The notes beneath the pieces are model-generated. The model ran no database searches and was not told the DNA's origin. It worked only from the letters and a program-made list of their open reading frames with translations. DNA of 6,714 nucleotides from contig JAUVCS010000047.1 of NCBI GenBank assembly GCA_030590745.1, forward strand, positions 1-6,714. The letters are read 5' to 3'. Numbering within the stretch: position 1 is the first letter of the stretch; every line of letters starts with the position of its first letter. The position numbers were made by a program, and so were the translations under genes. Positions 2,059 to 6,714 of this stretch are shown in pieces. The DNA is from Desulfuromusa sp. Lineage in GTDB: Bacteria; Desulfobacterota; Desulfuromonadia; Desulfuromonadales; Geopsychrobacteraceae.

Positions 2059-3687
2059 TTAAGCAACGATCCCTTTGATCTCTTCAACAAATTTCTGGAC
2101 CCTAGACTGCTTGACGATAGCACATTGTTCTTCTAGAACGGCGGCTAAAATACCTTCGGTGGTCAATGGATTGGCTAGAACCGAGCGAAATACCGAAATC
2201 TGGGTATCGGGATAGCGCGCTGAACGGAGTCGGGTTCTGGAGACAAAGGTCTTGCCTGCTTCCCGCTGCCGTTTTTGCACTTCCTGAGTAATCATATCCA
2301 GATGCTGATTGACCTCAACCAGTTGTTTCTGATCAAGGGTTGAGAGCTTTTTCTGCAACCATGCCGGATTATAACGATAGGTGAGGATATTCAGTTCCGG
2401 GGCTGTAATCAGCTCAAAATTTTGATGTTCATTGATCAGTTCAGCAAACCGATGCGCTTTTTCTATCCCCAGATCGATCAACAGTTCATACCCTTTGCGA
2501 CCGATAATTGATAATCCGGCATGTACCAGCATTGCCTTGCCGGGTCGGGATCCCTCCAGAGTATGGCTCCCCAGGTCTTTGGAACCGTGCCGCAGAATAT
2601 AGTTGGCGTGATGTTCAATCGCCGTCAGAGCATGCGGATCTTTGAACAGCACCATCCCGGCTCCCATCGGTACATAAAGCTGTTTATGGGCATCGATTGT
2701 CAGGGAATCGGCCCGTTCAACCCCCTTGAGCAAGTGCCGGTGGGTTTTTGAAAACAACGTCGGCCCGCCCCACGCAGCATCAACATGAAAATAGCAACCA
2801 ATTTCCTCAGCGAAATCCGCCAGCTTTTCCAGGGGGTCAACATGCCCCGTCTCAGTCGTTCCGGCAATCCCAACCAGGGCCAGGGGACGGATGTTCCGAT
2901 CACACAATTTTGTATATTCGTGACGGAGTGCCGCCATATCGATGCGACTGTTATCATCGGTATCGACCAGGATCAGATTATCCCGACCGATTCCAAGCAG
3001 GTCGACCGCTTTTCCAAGGGAATAATGGCCTCGGCGGGAAACCAGTATTGCCAGACCAGCACAGTTGAGATGCTGCAACGCCTTGAAGTATCCCTGCTTA
3101 GCAATCCCGGAAAAATCACCATCCGGCCCGCAAAGTTGATTTCTGGCAACCCACAGAGCCGTTGTGTTGGCAATGGTTCCTCCGGAGCAGAATGCCCCCA
3201 ATGCATGTTGGCTGTCATGAATCCATCTGTCATAAAAATCATTATCACGCTGATAAATCAGATGATGGAGCATGGCAAGAACCTGCCGTTCCAAGGGGGT
3301 AAATGCTTTGGAGGTTTCAACCTTGACCAGATTCTGATTTAAAGCTGTCATGATCCGCGACAGGGGGAGCATGAAATAAGGTAATGCCGAGGTCATATGA
3401 CCGACGAATCCGGGTGCTGAGGTATAGACTGACTGGGCAACCAGCTTTTCTTTGACAAATTCGGCGTAGGTCGAAACAAAGGAGGGTTCTTCAGGGATTT
3501 TTGCCGCAGCAAAGTCTTTTTCTATATCTTCCAGACTCCGCTCCAATGCGACAATGTGTTTCTGCAAAAAATCGGCTACATTCTCACTGATGGCATGATC
3601 AACAACACCCAAAGTTGAATCGGGAGCTTCCGGTACAGTAAAAATACGATAGAGATTTTCCAGATTGGCTAATGCAGTTTCAGTCAT
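2059..3687 (-). CDS. panP: PLP-dependent aspartate 1-decarboxylase PanP
   Basis: It is predicted to decarboxylate L-aspartate to beta-alanine for pantothenate synthesis, replacing the pyruvoyl enzyme PanD. The 542-residue protein belongs to the group II (glutamate decarboxylase-like, Pfam PF00282) fold-type I PLP enzymes. Visible sites are FCSGGTIANTTAL (166-178, phosphate binding), SRRGHYS with the cofactor-stacking H221, GTTETGHVDP (276-285), HVDAAWGG with D303 for the pyridine nitrogen, and IDAHKQLYVPMG with K335 as the Schiff-base lysine. The N-terminal 80 residues are helical and form part of the dimer, as in the family. The panP family was proposed from genomes that have panB and panC but no panD, and is clustered with them in Geobacter. 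This same linkage is seen here, with 3 bases between the panC stop and this ATG. GGA lies seven bases before the ATG. A glutamate, tyrosine or other amino-acid decarboxylase cannot be ruled out from sequence alone, but the context strongly favours aspartate. Confidence 0.93.
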   Translation of the reverse strand: MTETALANLENLYRIFTVPEAPDSTLGVVDHAISENVADFLQKHIVALERSLEDIEKDFAAAKIPEEPSFVSTYAEFVKEKLVAQSVYTSAPGFVGHMTSALPYFMLPLSRIMTALNQNLVKVETSKAFTPLERQVLAMLHHLIYQRDNDFYDRWIHDSQHALGAFCSGGTIANTTALWVARNQLCGPDGDFSGIAKQGYFKALQHLNCAGLAILVSRRGHYSLGKAVDLLGIGRDNLILVDTDDNSRIDMAALRHEYTKLCDRNIRPLALVGIAGTTETGHVDPLEKLADFAEEIGCYFHVDAAWGGPTLFSKTHRHLLKGVERADSLTIDAHKQLYVPMGAGMVLFKDPHALTAIEHHANYILRHGSKDLGSHTLEGSRPGKAMLVHAGLSIIGRKGYELLIDLGIEKAHRFAELINEHQNFELITAPELNILTYRYNPAWLQKKLSTLDQKQLVEVNQHLDMITQEVQKRQREAGKTFVSRTRLRSARYPDTQISVFRSVLANPLTTEGILAAVLEEQCAIVKQSRVQKFVEEIKGIVA

Positions 3688-3690
3688 AAA

Positions 3691-4536
3691 CTAATCCATT
3701 AAGAATCCATTGTCGATCAACCGGGTATTTCCGATATAAACTGCCAACAACAAAACCGAATTACCAGCGACTTCAAGCTGATCTTTCAGGGTCAACTGAT
3801 GGCAGATCTGCAGATAATCAATACGTGCAGCAGGTTGCTGGTTTATCGCTGTTTTCAATTGTAAAATAATTTCTGCAGCATCCTTTTGCCCCGCAGCAAC
3901 CAACTCTCTTGCCTTTATCAGCGATTGTGAAAGAACCAGAGCCTGCAGGCGTTGATCTTCTGTCAAGTAGACATTACGGGAGCTCATTGCTAAACCATCA
4001 GGTTCACGAAAGATCGGCAGACCAAGGATCTCAACCGGCATATTCAAGTCCTGAGTCATCCGCTTGATTACCGCAAGTTGCTGAAAATCCTTATTACCGA
4101 AAATCGCCAGCTGCGGTTGAATAATATTGAACAGTTTACTGACGACAGTACAAACGCCCCGAAAATGACCGGGACGACTGGCACCACAGAGAGTCTGGGT
4201 AATCCCTTCAACGTCAACATAAGTGGCATAACCATTCGGATACATCTGCTTTGCCTCGGGGGCAAAAATCACATCGACACCCGCCTGTTCTGCTAATTGA
4301 CTGTCCTGCTGCAGATCACGTGGGTAATCCTCAAGATCCTCCCCCGGTCCAAACTGAGTCGGGTTAACAAAGATAGAGAGAACCAGCTTATCCCCGCGCC
4401 GTTGCCCCTCTGCAAGCAAGGAGACATGTCCTTGATGGAGAAAGCCCATGGTCGGGACAAAAGAGATCGTTTCGTCAGCGCCCCTGACGCTGGCAACCCA
4501 CTGTTGCATTTCAGTGACTGATTTAATGATTTGCAT
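3691..4536 (-). CDS. panC: Pantothenate synthetase (pantoate--beta-alanine ligase)
   Basis: It joins D-pantoate and beta-alanine with ATP through a pantoyl-adenylate, the last step of pantothenate synthesis, in the cytoplasm. The 281-residue length is normal. VPTMGFLHQGH (27-37) holds the HxGH nucleotidyltransferase signature (H34, H37). IFVNPTQF (55-62) binds pantoate. FGNKDFQQL (146-154) corresponds to the usual FGEKD-QQL loop with an Asn in place of the common Glu, while the key K149 and D150 remain. MSSRNVYL (184-191) is the KMSKS-like loop. The C-terminal domain (from about 192) is the less conserved lid. The ATG lies 6 bases after the panB stop and has no clear Shine-Dalgarno sequence (CAAGTAAATAATC precedes it), so translation is probably coupled to panB. 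Its beta-alanine is presumably supplied by the next gene, panP. Confidence 0.97.
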   Translation of the reverse strand: MQIIKSVTEMQQWVASVRGADETISFVPTMGFLHQGHVSLLAEGQRRGDKLVLSIFVNPTQFGPGEDLEDYPRDLQQDSQLAEQAGVDVIFAPEAKQMYPNGYATYVDVEGITQTLCGASRPGHFRGVCTVVSKLFNIIQPQLAIFGNKDFQQLAVIKRMTQDLNMPVEILGLPIFREPDGLAMSSRNVYLTEDQRLQALVLSQSLIKARELVAAGQKDAAEIILQLKTAINQQPAARIDYLQICHQLTLKDQLEVAGNSVLLLAVYIGNTRLIDNGFLMD

Positions 4537-4542
4537 GATTAT

Positions 4543-5346
4543 TTACTTGAAGGAGTGGTTGGTTGTCGGGAAATCACCAGCTTTGACTTCCTTGATATAC
4601 TGCTCGATTCCCGACGTAATCGTTGCCGAAATATCGGCATAACGTTTGACAAACTTTGGTGAGTATTTATCGCAGAGACCCAGAATATCGTGAATCACCA
4701 GCACCTGACCATCACAGTCAGAACCGGCACCGATACCGATGGTCGGGATATTGACAGACTCGGTAACCGCTTTTGCCAGATCGCGGGGGATTCCTTCCAA
4801 AACCATGGCAAACGCACCAGCCTCTTCGACAGCTTTTGCATCAGCAAGAATCTTTCTCGCCTGTTCATCTTCGCGACCCTGCACCCGGAAGCCACCCATC
4901 CGATGGATCGATTGGGGAGTTAAACCGATATGACCAACAACCGGAATATCAATATCAACAATCGCACGGATTGTCTTGGCCATGTGCTCACCACCTTCCA
5001 GTTTCACCGCCTGGGCACCACCCTCTTTGATTAAACGACCAGCGTTGAATCTGGCTTCCCGTTCATCAATCTGATAAGACATAAAAGGGAGGTCGGTCAC
5101 AATCAACGCCTGCTGACTGCCACGGACCACCGCCCTGGTATGATAGAGCATCTCTTCCACAGTGACCGGTAGAGTATTGTCATAGCCGGAAAACACCGAG
5201 CCAACTGAATCTCCAACCAGAATGATGTCAATTCCAACCCGATCCATCAATTGAGCAAAAGGGTAATCATAAGCGGTCAGAACGGTAATTTTATTCTGCT
5301 GCTCTTTCATCAGACTGATATCAAGAATTGTCTTACGGTTTTTCAT
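4543..5346 (-). CDS. panB: 3-methyl-2-oxobutanoate hydroxymethyltransferase (ketopantoate hydroxymethyltransferase)
   Basis: It transfers the one-carbon unit of 5,10-methylene-THF to 2-oxoisovalerate to form ketopantoate, the first committed step towards pantothenate and CoA. The 267-residue protein is of standard length and a TIM-barrel enzyme. Metal and substrate residues are present: ILVGDSVG with D46, VTDLPFMSYQ with D85, VKLEGG with K115 and E117, and VLEGIP with the likely catalytic acid E184. GHIGLTPQS (138-146) and IGIGAGSDCDGQVLV (203-217) are further signatures. The ATG is preceded by GAGGT (5357-5353) with six-base spacing. That ribosome site directly touches the U-tract of an intrinsic terminator in the leader, so transcription must begin upstream of the terminator and pass it. 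It is the first gene of the probable operon panB-panC-panP-amidohydrolase. Confidence 0.98.
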   Translation of the reverse strand: MKNRKTILDISLMKEQQNKITVLTAYDYPFAQLMDRVGIDIILVGDSVGSVFSGYDNTLPVTVEEMLYHTRAVVRGSQQALIVTDLPFMSYQIDEREARFNAGRLIKEGGAQAVKLEGGEHMAKTIRAIVDIDIPVVGHIGLTPQSIHRMGGFRVQGREDEQARKILADAKAVEEAGAFAMVLEGIPRDLAKAVTESVNIPTIGIGAGSDCDGQVLVIHDILGLCDKYSPKFVKRYADISATITSGIEQYIKEVKAGDFPTTNHSFK

Positions 5347-5357
5347 CGATATACCTC

Positions 5358-5390
5358 AAAAAAAATACCCTTCGCAGTTAACGAAAGGTA
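5358..5390 (-). terminator. Intrinsic terminator inside the panB leader (attenuator)
   Basis: TACCTTTCG (5390-5382) and CGAAGGGTA (5374-5366) form a 9-bp stem (one G-U) with loop TTAACTG, followed at once by eight U residues (5365-5358). The next base begins the panB Shine-Dalgarno sequence. There is no room for a promoter between this terminator and the gene, and the upstream gdh gene already has its own strong terminator 240 bases earlier, so regulation by attenuation is the best reading. Confidence 0.85.
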
Positions 5391-5424
5391 GCGACAGAAC
5401 TCAGTGGTTCTGTTTCAGACAAAT

Positions 5425-5466
5425 CACCTTCCGTCCCGGTCCGCAGATCCAGGCGGCATTTAGATG
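5425..5466 (-). other. Leader hairpin 2 with bulged A, overlapping the antiterminator strand
   Basis: CCG-CCTGG (5456-5449) pairs with CCGGG-A-CGG (5439-5431) around a nine-base loop, leaving the A at 5434 bulged. An outer helix CATCT (5466-5462) with AGGTG (5429-5425) may close it, leaving another A at 5430 opposite AAATG. The 3' side reads GGG-A-CGG-A, parallel to hairpin 1. Its last nine bases are also the antiterminator strand. Confidence 0.55.
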
Positions 5467-5482
5467 CTTCAAAAAAACCTCG

Positions 5483-5507
5483 TGACTCCGATGTGTGCAC
5501 CGGGTCA
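5483..5507 (-). other. Leader hairpin 1 with bulged A
   Basis: TGAC-CCGGTG (5507-5498) pairs with CATCGG-A-GTCA (5493-5483) around a CACA loop. That gives ten base pairs (one G-U), with a single unpaired A at 5487. Read on the 3' side the pattern is CGG-A-GTC-A (5490-5483): two adenosines spaced by three bases, the same spacing as in hairpin 2. The hairpin starts about ten bases after the predicted transcription start. Confidence 0.6.
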
Positions 5508-5524
5508 ATGAGCAGGTCAAAACG

Positions 5525-5553
5525 GATATAACACAGCTATCATTCCGTGTCTA
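5525..5553 (-). promoter_or_regulatory. Predicted sigma-70 promoter of the pan operon
   Basis: TAGACA (5553-5548, five of six to the -35 consensus) and TATATC (5530-5525, four of six to the -10 consensus) are separated by exactly 17 bases. The start would be near 5518, just before the first leader hairpin and downstream of the gdh terminator, which makes the position sensible. An imperfect palindrome with arms ACGGA (5548-5544) and TCCGT (5526-5522) straddles the spacer and the -10 box and could be an operator, but this is weak. Confidence 0.55.
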
Positions 5554-5656: not shown

Positions 5657-6714
5657 TCAGGCCTTTACCAGCCCTTCCAAAGAACGCAACAGAACCGTAA
5701 ATGGGTGGAAATTGCGTGGCGAATCGTTGATCAAAGATTGTCGCAACCCCTCAAAAGAGCGTAACTTCTGCCGTCGTTTAGCAAAAAACGTCTGCGGATT
5801 ATCGACTGACTCCAATGCAACCTGCTGGATAATTCGAATATTGACCGCATGCAGGGAACTGATCAAAGATTCCCTCGCCCGGCGATCCCAGCTATCGACG
5901 ACCGAGACTTTTTCCAGTAATGCATAGATGGCAGCACTGTTAATTTTTTCATCAACCAGAACCTTGATTTGAGCCAGTTGTCCGAGGTTCTGCCCTGACG
6001 AATCAATCATACAGATCAACGGTAAGAAATCGGTCAAACGATCAAGAACTGCATAAGTATAAGCAATCTCTTCACCTAAACCATCATCGATAAGCTCTCT
6101 TTTAAATTGATCACACTCCTGCCAGGCAGCGGCAGGAAGAACCGTTGGCAACAACTCTGTATATTGTTTCAACTGGAGGCTGATACGTTCCAGATCTTCA
6201 TGAGAGGTTGGAATAACCATCCCATTACCCAGGGCATAGGTGCAGAAGAAACTGAGCAAATCTTCAAGCTTTAATAACAATTCATATTGGCGATCTGCAG
6301 AAATTTTGTTATCCAGAGCAAAAACTGCCTGGCGAAGTTCTTGACCATTGAGCAAACTATCAAAAATCAGGTAGGCACTCGCGACCTCAACCTGAGTACT
6401 GCCTGTCATCCGACTGACGGTCTGAGGAAAAGTGCTCCCGGCCTGATCAATAATCCGATTGGTCAATATGGTGGCGGAAATCTCTTTAGCCAAGGGGTGA
6501 AGTGGTAAAGAATCGGGGTAACGATCAATCACCTGCTGCGGGAAGTAATCAAACAGCAGCTGTGATACCACCTCATTCTTTGGCAACTCGGCATCGAGAA
6601 GAGCTTTAAACAGGAACATTTTACTGTAGGCCAGCAAGACAGAAAGTTCCGGCCGAACCAGACGGTTTGGCTGGCGTGCAGAAACTTCTTTACGGCTGGG
6701 TAAAAATTCACCAC
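5657..6714 (-). CDS. NAD-specific glutamate dehydrogenase, large type, C-terminal part (cut by the window edge)
   Basis: The bacterial large NAD-GDH (about 1600 residues, Pfam Bac_GDH) oxidatively deaminates glutamate to 2-oxoglutarate and ammonia with NAD+ and usually works in amino-acid catabolism. Only about 351 C-terminal residues are in the window; the frame stays open to position 6712 and the catalytic domain lies upstream of it. The stretch RPELSVLLAYSKM is a hallmark of the family and spans the TTG at 6637-6635, which is an internal leucine and not a start. HPLAKEI followed by NRIIDQAGSTF, and the helical C-terminal region with repeated Leu-rich segments, also fit. The stop TGA at 5659-5657 is followed by a strong terminator, so this is the natural 3' end of the gene. 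No frameshift is seen in the visible part. It forms a transcription unit separate from pan. Confidence 0.94.
   Translation of the reverse strand, partial: GEFLPSRKEVSARQPNRLVRPELSVLLAYSKMFLFKALLDAELPKNEVVSQLLFDYFPQQVIDRYPDSLPLHPLAKEISATILTNRIIDQAGSTFPQTVSRMTGSTQVEVASAYLIFDSLLNGQELRQAVFALDNKISADRQYELLLKLEDLLSFFCTYALGNGMVIPTSHEDLERISLQLKQYTELLPTVLPAAAWQECDQFKRELIDDGLGEEIAYTYAVLDRLTDFLPLICMIDSSGQNLGQLAQIKVLVDEKINSAAIYALLEKVSVVDSWDRRARESLISSLHAVNIRIIQQVALESVDNPQTFFAKRRQKLRSFEGLRQSLINDSPRNFHPFTVLLRSLEGLVKA

Follow-up and report, generated by a model that had tools for sequence, protein, structure and literature searches.

The pan RNA motif was described in 2010 (Weinberg 2010, PMC2864571), with a tandem arrangement in most, although not all, of its occurrences (PMC2864571). 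RNA-seq studies of Bacillus and Paenibacillus list the motif as well (PMC4342826, PMC4634765, PMC5670726). No terminator or antiterminator role is given to pan in the pan section or in the main-text terminator passages of the original description (PMC2864571), and neither a pan ligand nor an attenuation mechanism was recognised in open-licence PMC text. In a 2022 review, CoA is named among the cofactors that are surprisingly without a known riboswitch (PMC9971707).

The window (the whole stretch of DNA analyzed here, 6,714 nucleotides) carries a panB leader in which the pan tail can pair with the 5' arm of a terminator. This leader is quite probably an attenuator, predicted to turn panB-panC-panP off once an effector, likely a pantothenate- or CoA-pathway product, holds the second pan hairpin (P2) closed.

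The Locus and Its Leader

On the minus strand, a GDH_C-family gene is followed by the leader, panB, panC, and panP. The operon had already been read as panB-panC-panP, and all three identities were confirmed above the TIGRFAM cut-offs: panB, ketopantoate hydroxymethyltransferase (4543..5346; TIGR00222, 364.2 bits, cut-off 207.55), panC, pantoate-beta-alanine ligase (3691..4536; TIGR00018, 337.1 bits, cut-off 212.75), and panP, pyridoxal-dependent aspartate 1-decarboxylase (2059..3687; TIGR03799, 892.7 bits, cut-off 606.1). The GDH_C-family gene (PF21074), on the same strand, ends at 5657 and has its own terminator (5634-5612). After panP, also on the minus strand, lies an amidohydrolase of uncertain substrate (2034-766), whose best NCBIfam score of 167.2 bits is below the cut-off of 320. 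Farther along this strand, the 5' part of a tmRNA gene, cut at the window end (127-1), adjoins smpB (660-205).

A promoter is predicted at 5525..5553 (minus strand), with TAGACA (5553-5548), a 17-base spacer, and TATATC (5530-5525) preceded by TGTG. From this prediction the start site would lie near 5518, ahead of the first pan hairpin (P1). A start below 5390, which would speak against an attenuator, was not seen; the promoter, itself only a prediction, lies upstream of the whole element. A generic sigma-70 promoter scan found none. Among order relatives, a TGTGnTATA promoter-like element recurs upstream of P1, with a T(A/G)GACA box farther upstream. The promoter tally covered 83 of the 94 order leaders, and TG.TA[TA]A, a pattern picked after the leaders had been viewed, was present in 73 of these 83 against 6.1 in mononucleotide shuffles.

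The remaining leader features are likewise on the minus strand. P1 (5484..5506) reads GAC-CCGGUG-CACA-CAUCGG-A-GUC, with a CACA loop and a 3' bulged A near its base. Its basal pairs covary in the order, and the pair below the loop is G-C in the window versus A-U in 78 of the 94 order leaders. Beyond the sequence-only reading, the pan element starts upstream of hairpin 2, with this hairpin and the predicted promoter ahead of it. P2 (5431..5456) consists of 3 bp, a bulged A, 5 bp with a central U-G, a second bulged A, and 2 bp. The conserved pan tail CGGAAGGUG (5425..5433), the predicted antiterminator strand, has CGG (5433-5431) in common with the P2 base. Between the tail and the terminator arm is a further hairpin, CAGAAC-CACUGA-GUUCUG (5395..5412); a fold with z below -1 was found at this site in 67 of 90 order, 41 of 55 class, and 13 of 65 Bacilli leaders.

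The intrinsic terminator hairpin, assigned by sequence (5366..5390), has main arms of 9 bp, the 5' arm being UACCUUUCG (5390-5382) and the 3' arm CGAAGGGUA (5374-5366). Its U8 tract (5358..5365) abuts the GAGG ribosome site (5357-5354), and the panB ATG at 5346 is separated from the tail by 78 bases. Three terminator-like sites, including the panB terminator, occur in 451 bases, where shuffles give 0.8. The tail pairs with all nine bases of 5390-5382, two of the pairs being G-U. When the leader was dinucleotide-shuffled 3000 times, 43 of the shuffles contained a 9-bp partner for the 5' arm; in the leader itself, the tail is the best arm partner of 117 ten-base windows (-11.7, next -6.0; close overlaps with the tail excluded). 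The main elements of the sequence-only reading were recovered at their positions: the 9-bp terminator with a U8 tract against the panB ribosome site, the segment 5433-5425 able to pair with the entire 5' arm, and the overlap of this segment with the 3' strand of a competing hairpin 2. In that hairpin (5456-5431), two A residues are bulged. Two hallmarks of an attenuator were found by sequence, namely a terminator (5390-5358) between the predicted promoter and panB, and a tail-arm pairing that excludes the terminator and recurs in relatives.

Membership in the pan Motif

The Rfam pan model RF01749 matches the window at 5491-5427 with 34.1 bits (E 0.0045). The proposed check with this model thus gave a match, but one 2.1 bits below the cut-off of 36.2, and hairpin 1 was misplaced. 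Because of the low score and the misplaced P1, 27 of the 93 order leaders other than the window's own were used to build a separate covariance model, R1. R1 matched the window at 5508-5425 with 61.8 bits (its E-values are rough), and the assignment to pan is supported by this lineage model, though the Rfam score remains under the cut-off. Two leaders from the same genus score above the RF01749 cut-off (G008, 43.5 bits; G002, 42.8 bits).

In relatives the tandem is clear, with a P1 in which CCGG pairs with CCGG and an A is bulged, a linker of variable length, P2, and a tail that is usually GGAAGG. When the P2 5' strand was positioned by best match to a consensus, the two bulged P2 positions were A in what rounds to 100% of the leaders of each group (94 order, 61 class, 80 Bacilli). 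A P2 with two conserved bulged A residues is a feature of pan, and it was found in the window at 5456-5431; the genomic position upstream of a panB-panC-panP operon fits pan as well. In the window P1 the lower bulged A is present and the upper one is replaced by pairs, and order relatives are likewise without a clear upper bulge. The window leader is a member of the known motif and most likely a tandem pan RNA.

In the nearest relatives, RF01749 matched 46 of 60 at E up to 1, with 15 over the cut-off. At E up to 0.1, matches were found in 94 of 136 order genomes, 195 of 277 class genomes (order included), and 125 of 150 genomes in the order of a Bacillus. The comparative set comprised 235 leaders, the window's own included: 94 from the order, 61 from the class (drawn from 60 of the 101 class genomes outside the order that had a match), and 80 from Bacilli. 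The Bacilli sites came from 30 best-ranked, 40 hand-picked, and 12 further places, less L193 (a second match at the L192 site) and L288 (no P2 match by the rule used). The gene downstream of pan was panB in 230 of the 235 leaders, panC in one, and panD in one (from reading the translation); three had no match, and one of these sits at a contig end. The leaders before panC (L191) and panD (L192) belong to Bacilli genomes with another pan match elsewhere. A pattern scan of named genomes gave at least 117 stretches, and panB adjoined in 14 of those 117 (tblastn). Six non-panB stretches among the matches listed were inspected; L056 is a pan before panC, and by eye the other five, L090 and L101 with Chloroflexi titles among them, had no pan-like context.

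Tail and Terminator in Relatives

A rule-based terminator was found between pan and the gene in 226 of the 235 leaders (94/94 order, 60/61 class, 72/80 Bacilli). For arm pairing, the tail was among the best 5% of the leader's ten-mers in 184 of these 226 (76/94, 48/60, and 60/72, respectively), and it was the outright best ten-mer in 53 of 94 order, 36 of 60 class, and 49 of 72 Bacilli leaders. A sequence complementary to the pan tail is present in the terminator 5' arm; among order leaders the match is mostly GCCUUUCG against CGGAAGGC. A divergent tail often comes with a correspondingly changed arm: CGGAAGG occurs with CCUUUCG, CGAAA with UUUCG (L024, L035, L039, L042), CGGACGG with CCGUCC (L351, L352, L255), GGCAGU with ACUGCC (L171, L194, L205), and, in Bacilli L183, AGAGGGAU with AUCCUUCU. 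Tail-arm pairing is poor in L264, L266, L192, and L212.

Swapping of partners among 70 distinct tails weakened the pairing (z -5.0, 0/5000), while four control segments of the same leaders gave z values of -0.2 to -1.4; these z values ignore relatedness and are not probabilities. By group, the test gave z -3.0 in the order (9/5000) and z -2.3 in the class (60/5000), and within Bacilli it was not significant (z -0.8, 1045/5000). The within-group controls reached -1.7 for the terminator 3' arm (order), -1.9 for the segment before the arm (class), and -2.4 for the segment after the U tract (Bacilli).

Column covariation was examined in the order, where the share of pairs kept exceeded all 300 shuffles for the P1 base, the P1 upper stem, the P2 base, and the terminator. 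For the P2 upper stem, 37 of 300 shuffles reach the observed share, and the P2 tip is invariant; both are too conserved to be informative. In a fixed register, the antiterminator columns showed no covariation beyond shuffles within the order (53 of 300 reach the observed share). The antiterminator cells are 86% paired, and sliding the register one or two columns lowers this to 41-57%. Both tail and arm hardly vary in the order, and some families use another register. The covariation to be sought in aligned leaders was found for hairpin 1 and the base of hairpin 2 but not for the antiterminator, for which the evidence is therefore conserved complementarity, cross-lineage partner swaps, and joint loss instead of classical covariation.

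Joint loss was seen in the order genomes without an RF01749 match, 26 of 42 of which were covered by a re-search. Seventeen of the 26 have panB. At these 17 loci, four have an R1 match beside panB and a fifth has a diverged pan by eye; 11 panB leaders have no pan by eye, and one more contig starts inside the leader. Of the panB leaders whose pan was missed by RF01749, 5 of 5 have a terminator, as against 1 of 11 in which no pan could be recognised. Loss of pan goes with loss of the terminator.

Nine leaders have no terminator by the rule (8/80 Bacilli, 1/61 class). In L249 the hairpin is present and was missed by the rule. In Bacilli L281 the tail AGAAGGAGG is the ribosome site itself. Similarly, the tail CUAAGGAGG of L288, one of the two sites dropped from the Bacilli set, overlaps the ribosome site, and in Bacilli L309 and L296 the complement of the tail directly precedes it. 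These arrangements suggest that the four leaders may be translational variants, with the tail coupled to translation instead of a terminator. L189 and L299 have a different tail and no terminator by the rule, and L232 and L313 also have no terminator by the rule. Three further leaders (L364, L365, L366) are pan-like, with a changed P2 (UGAAUC, CCGCGAC), an apparently damaged P1, and an intact tail and terminator.

Folding and the Proposed Switch

Folded from 5512 to just before the terminator 3' arm, the leader favors the antiterminator (-45.9 kcal/mol versus -42.6 with the P2 base forced, a difference of 3.3). In the full-leader fold the terminator form is favored (-53.5 versus -49.7 kcal/mol, a difference of 3.8). 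Because of these energies, read-through set by the order of folding would be the default in the window, and a stabilizer of P2 would switch the operon off. Relatives were folded from P2, with 4 order, 5 class, and 7 Bacilli leaders omitted. Before the 3' arm the antiterminator was favored in 77 of 90 order, 26 of 55 class, and 55 of 65 Bacilli leaders; after the 3' arm the terminator was favored in 76 of 90, 54 of 55, and 55 of 65, respectively. The class count of 26 of 55 does not support a read-through default there.

The competition between terminator, antiterminator, and hairpin 2 that had been proposed for this leader is supported, and it recurs in relatives in the rank, swap, and fold-energy tests. 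As the sequence itself shows, pairing of 5433-5431 in the P2 base and in the antiterminator is mutually exclusive. In view of the rank and swap tests, the antiterminator strand is most likely formed by the pan tail, and the closing of hairpin 2 likely turns the operon off. With no effector, the tail would leave the P2 base and pair with the terminator 5' arm once this is made, which would allow read-through. With effector, the CGG of the tail would be kept paired inside P2 below the bulged A; with the antiterminator deprived of three of nine pairs, the terminator would form.

Nature of the Effector and Alternative Explanations

The effector of this attenuator has close to an even chance of being a metabolite bound by the RNA itself. 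More speculatively, pan may be the missing riboswitch for CoA supply, in which the two bulged-A hairpins would jointly bind CoA or a precursor. Its conserved tail would then serve as a switching strand common to several phyla, opposing a terminator in most lineages and, in some Bacilli, the ribosome site.

It is also quite conceivable, if tentative, that the same attenuator responds to a protein, probably dimeric, which grips both bulged-A hairpins and reports the status of the pathway; the leader would then not be a riboswitch. The length of the P1-P2 linker varies, and most P2 positions show no variation across the 27 model leaders, as is possible for protein sites; both points favor this explanation. 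We know of no candidate protein for pan binding. A protein effector has already been proposed for pan, and a dimeric binder was favored from the tandem arrangement and the simple stems (PMC2864571). However, guanidine-II, a small-molecule class, also consists of two small tandem hairpins (PMC5486947).

Whatever the effector is, a switch in the opposite direction, with the effector favoring the antiterminator and turning the operon on, is improbable. The P2 base and the antiterminator share 5433-5431, and since these bases are common to both, an effector on the closed bulged-A hairpin would disfavor the antiterminator. Moreover, product repression is the expected mode for a biosynthetic operon.

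It is similarly unlikely that the terminator has a fixed strength without switching and that pan has another role, e.g., in mRNA stability. The lack of antiterminator column covariation in a fixed register within the order would agree with such a terminator, but the tail-arm match across 70 distinct tails exceeds that of the four control segments, and pan and terminator are lost jointly. Finally, ribosome-controlled attenuation through a leader peptide is very improbable and was rejected: two short frames exist (5500-5378, 40 aa, GTG; 5520-5401, 39 aa, TTG), but runs of valine or of any other pathway amino acid are absent from both translations, while RNA helices are conserved.

Comparison With Known Systems

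With the leader read as an attenuator in which P2 closure turns the operon off, the leader sequences offer comparative evidence on the action of a motif already known. Should the tail act as the antiterminator strand, candidate effectors could be tested directly by a simple read-through assay, and the natural tail and arm variants point to compensatory mutants. The guanidine-II (mini-ykkC) riboswitch is similar to pan in having two small, similar hairpins in tandem; in that class, though not in the picture drawn here, a loop-to-loop interaction of the hairpins with the ligand is reported (PMC5486947, PMC7544219). Compared with pan as modeled in RF01749, the window leader shares the bulged A residues of P2, a conserved GAAGG-like tail, and the place upstream of panB, and its hairpins are probably in tandem as well, but its 34.1 bits are below the Rfam cut-off and its P1 keeps only one clear bulged A. 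In attenuating off riboswitches (e.g., TPP and FMN leaders), a strand of the aptamer competes with the antiterminator for the terminator arm. The same strand competition is predicted in the window.
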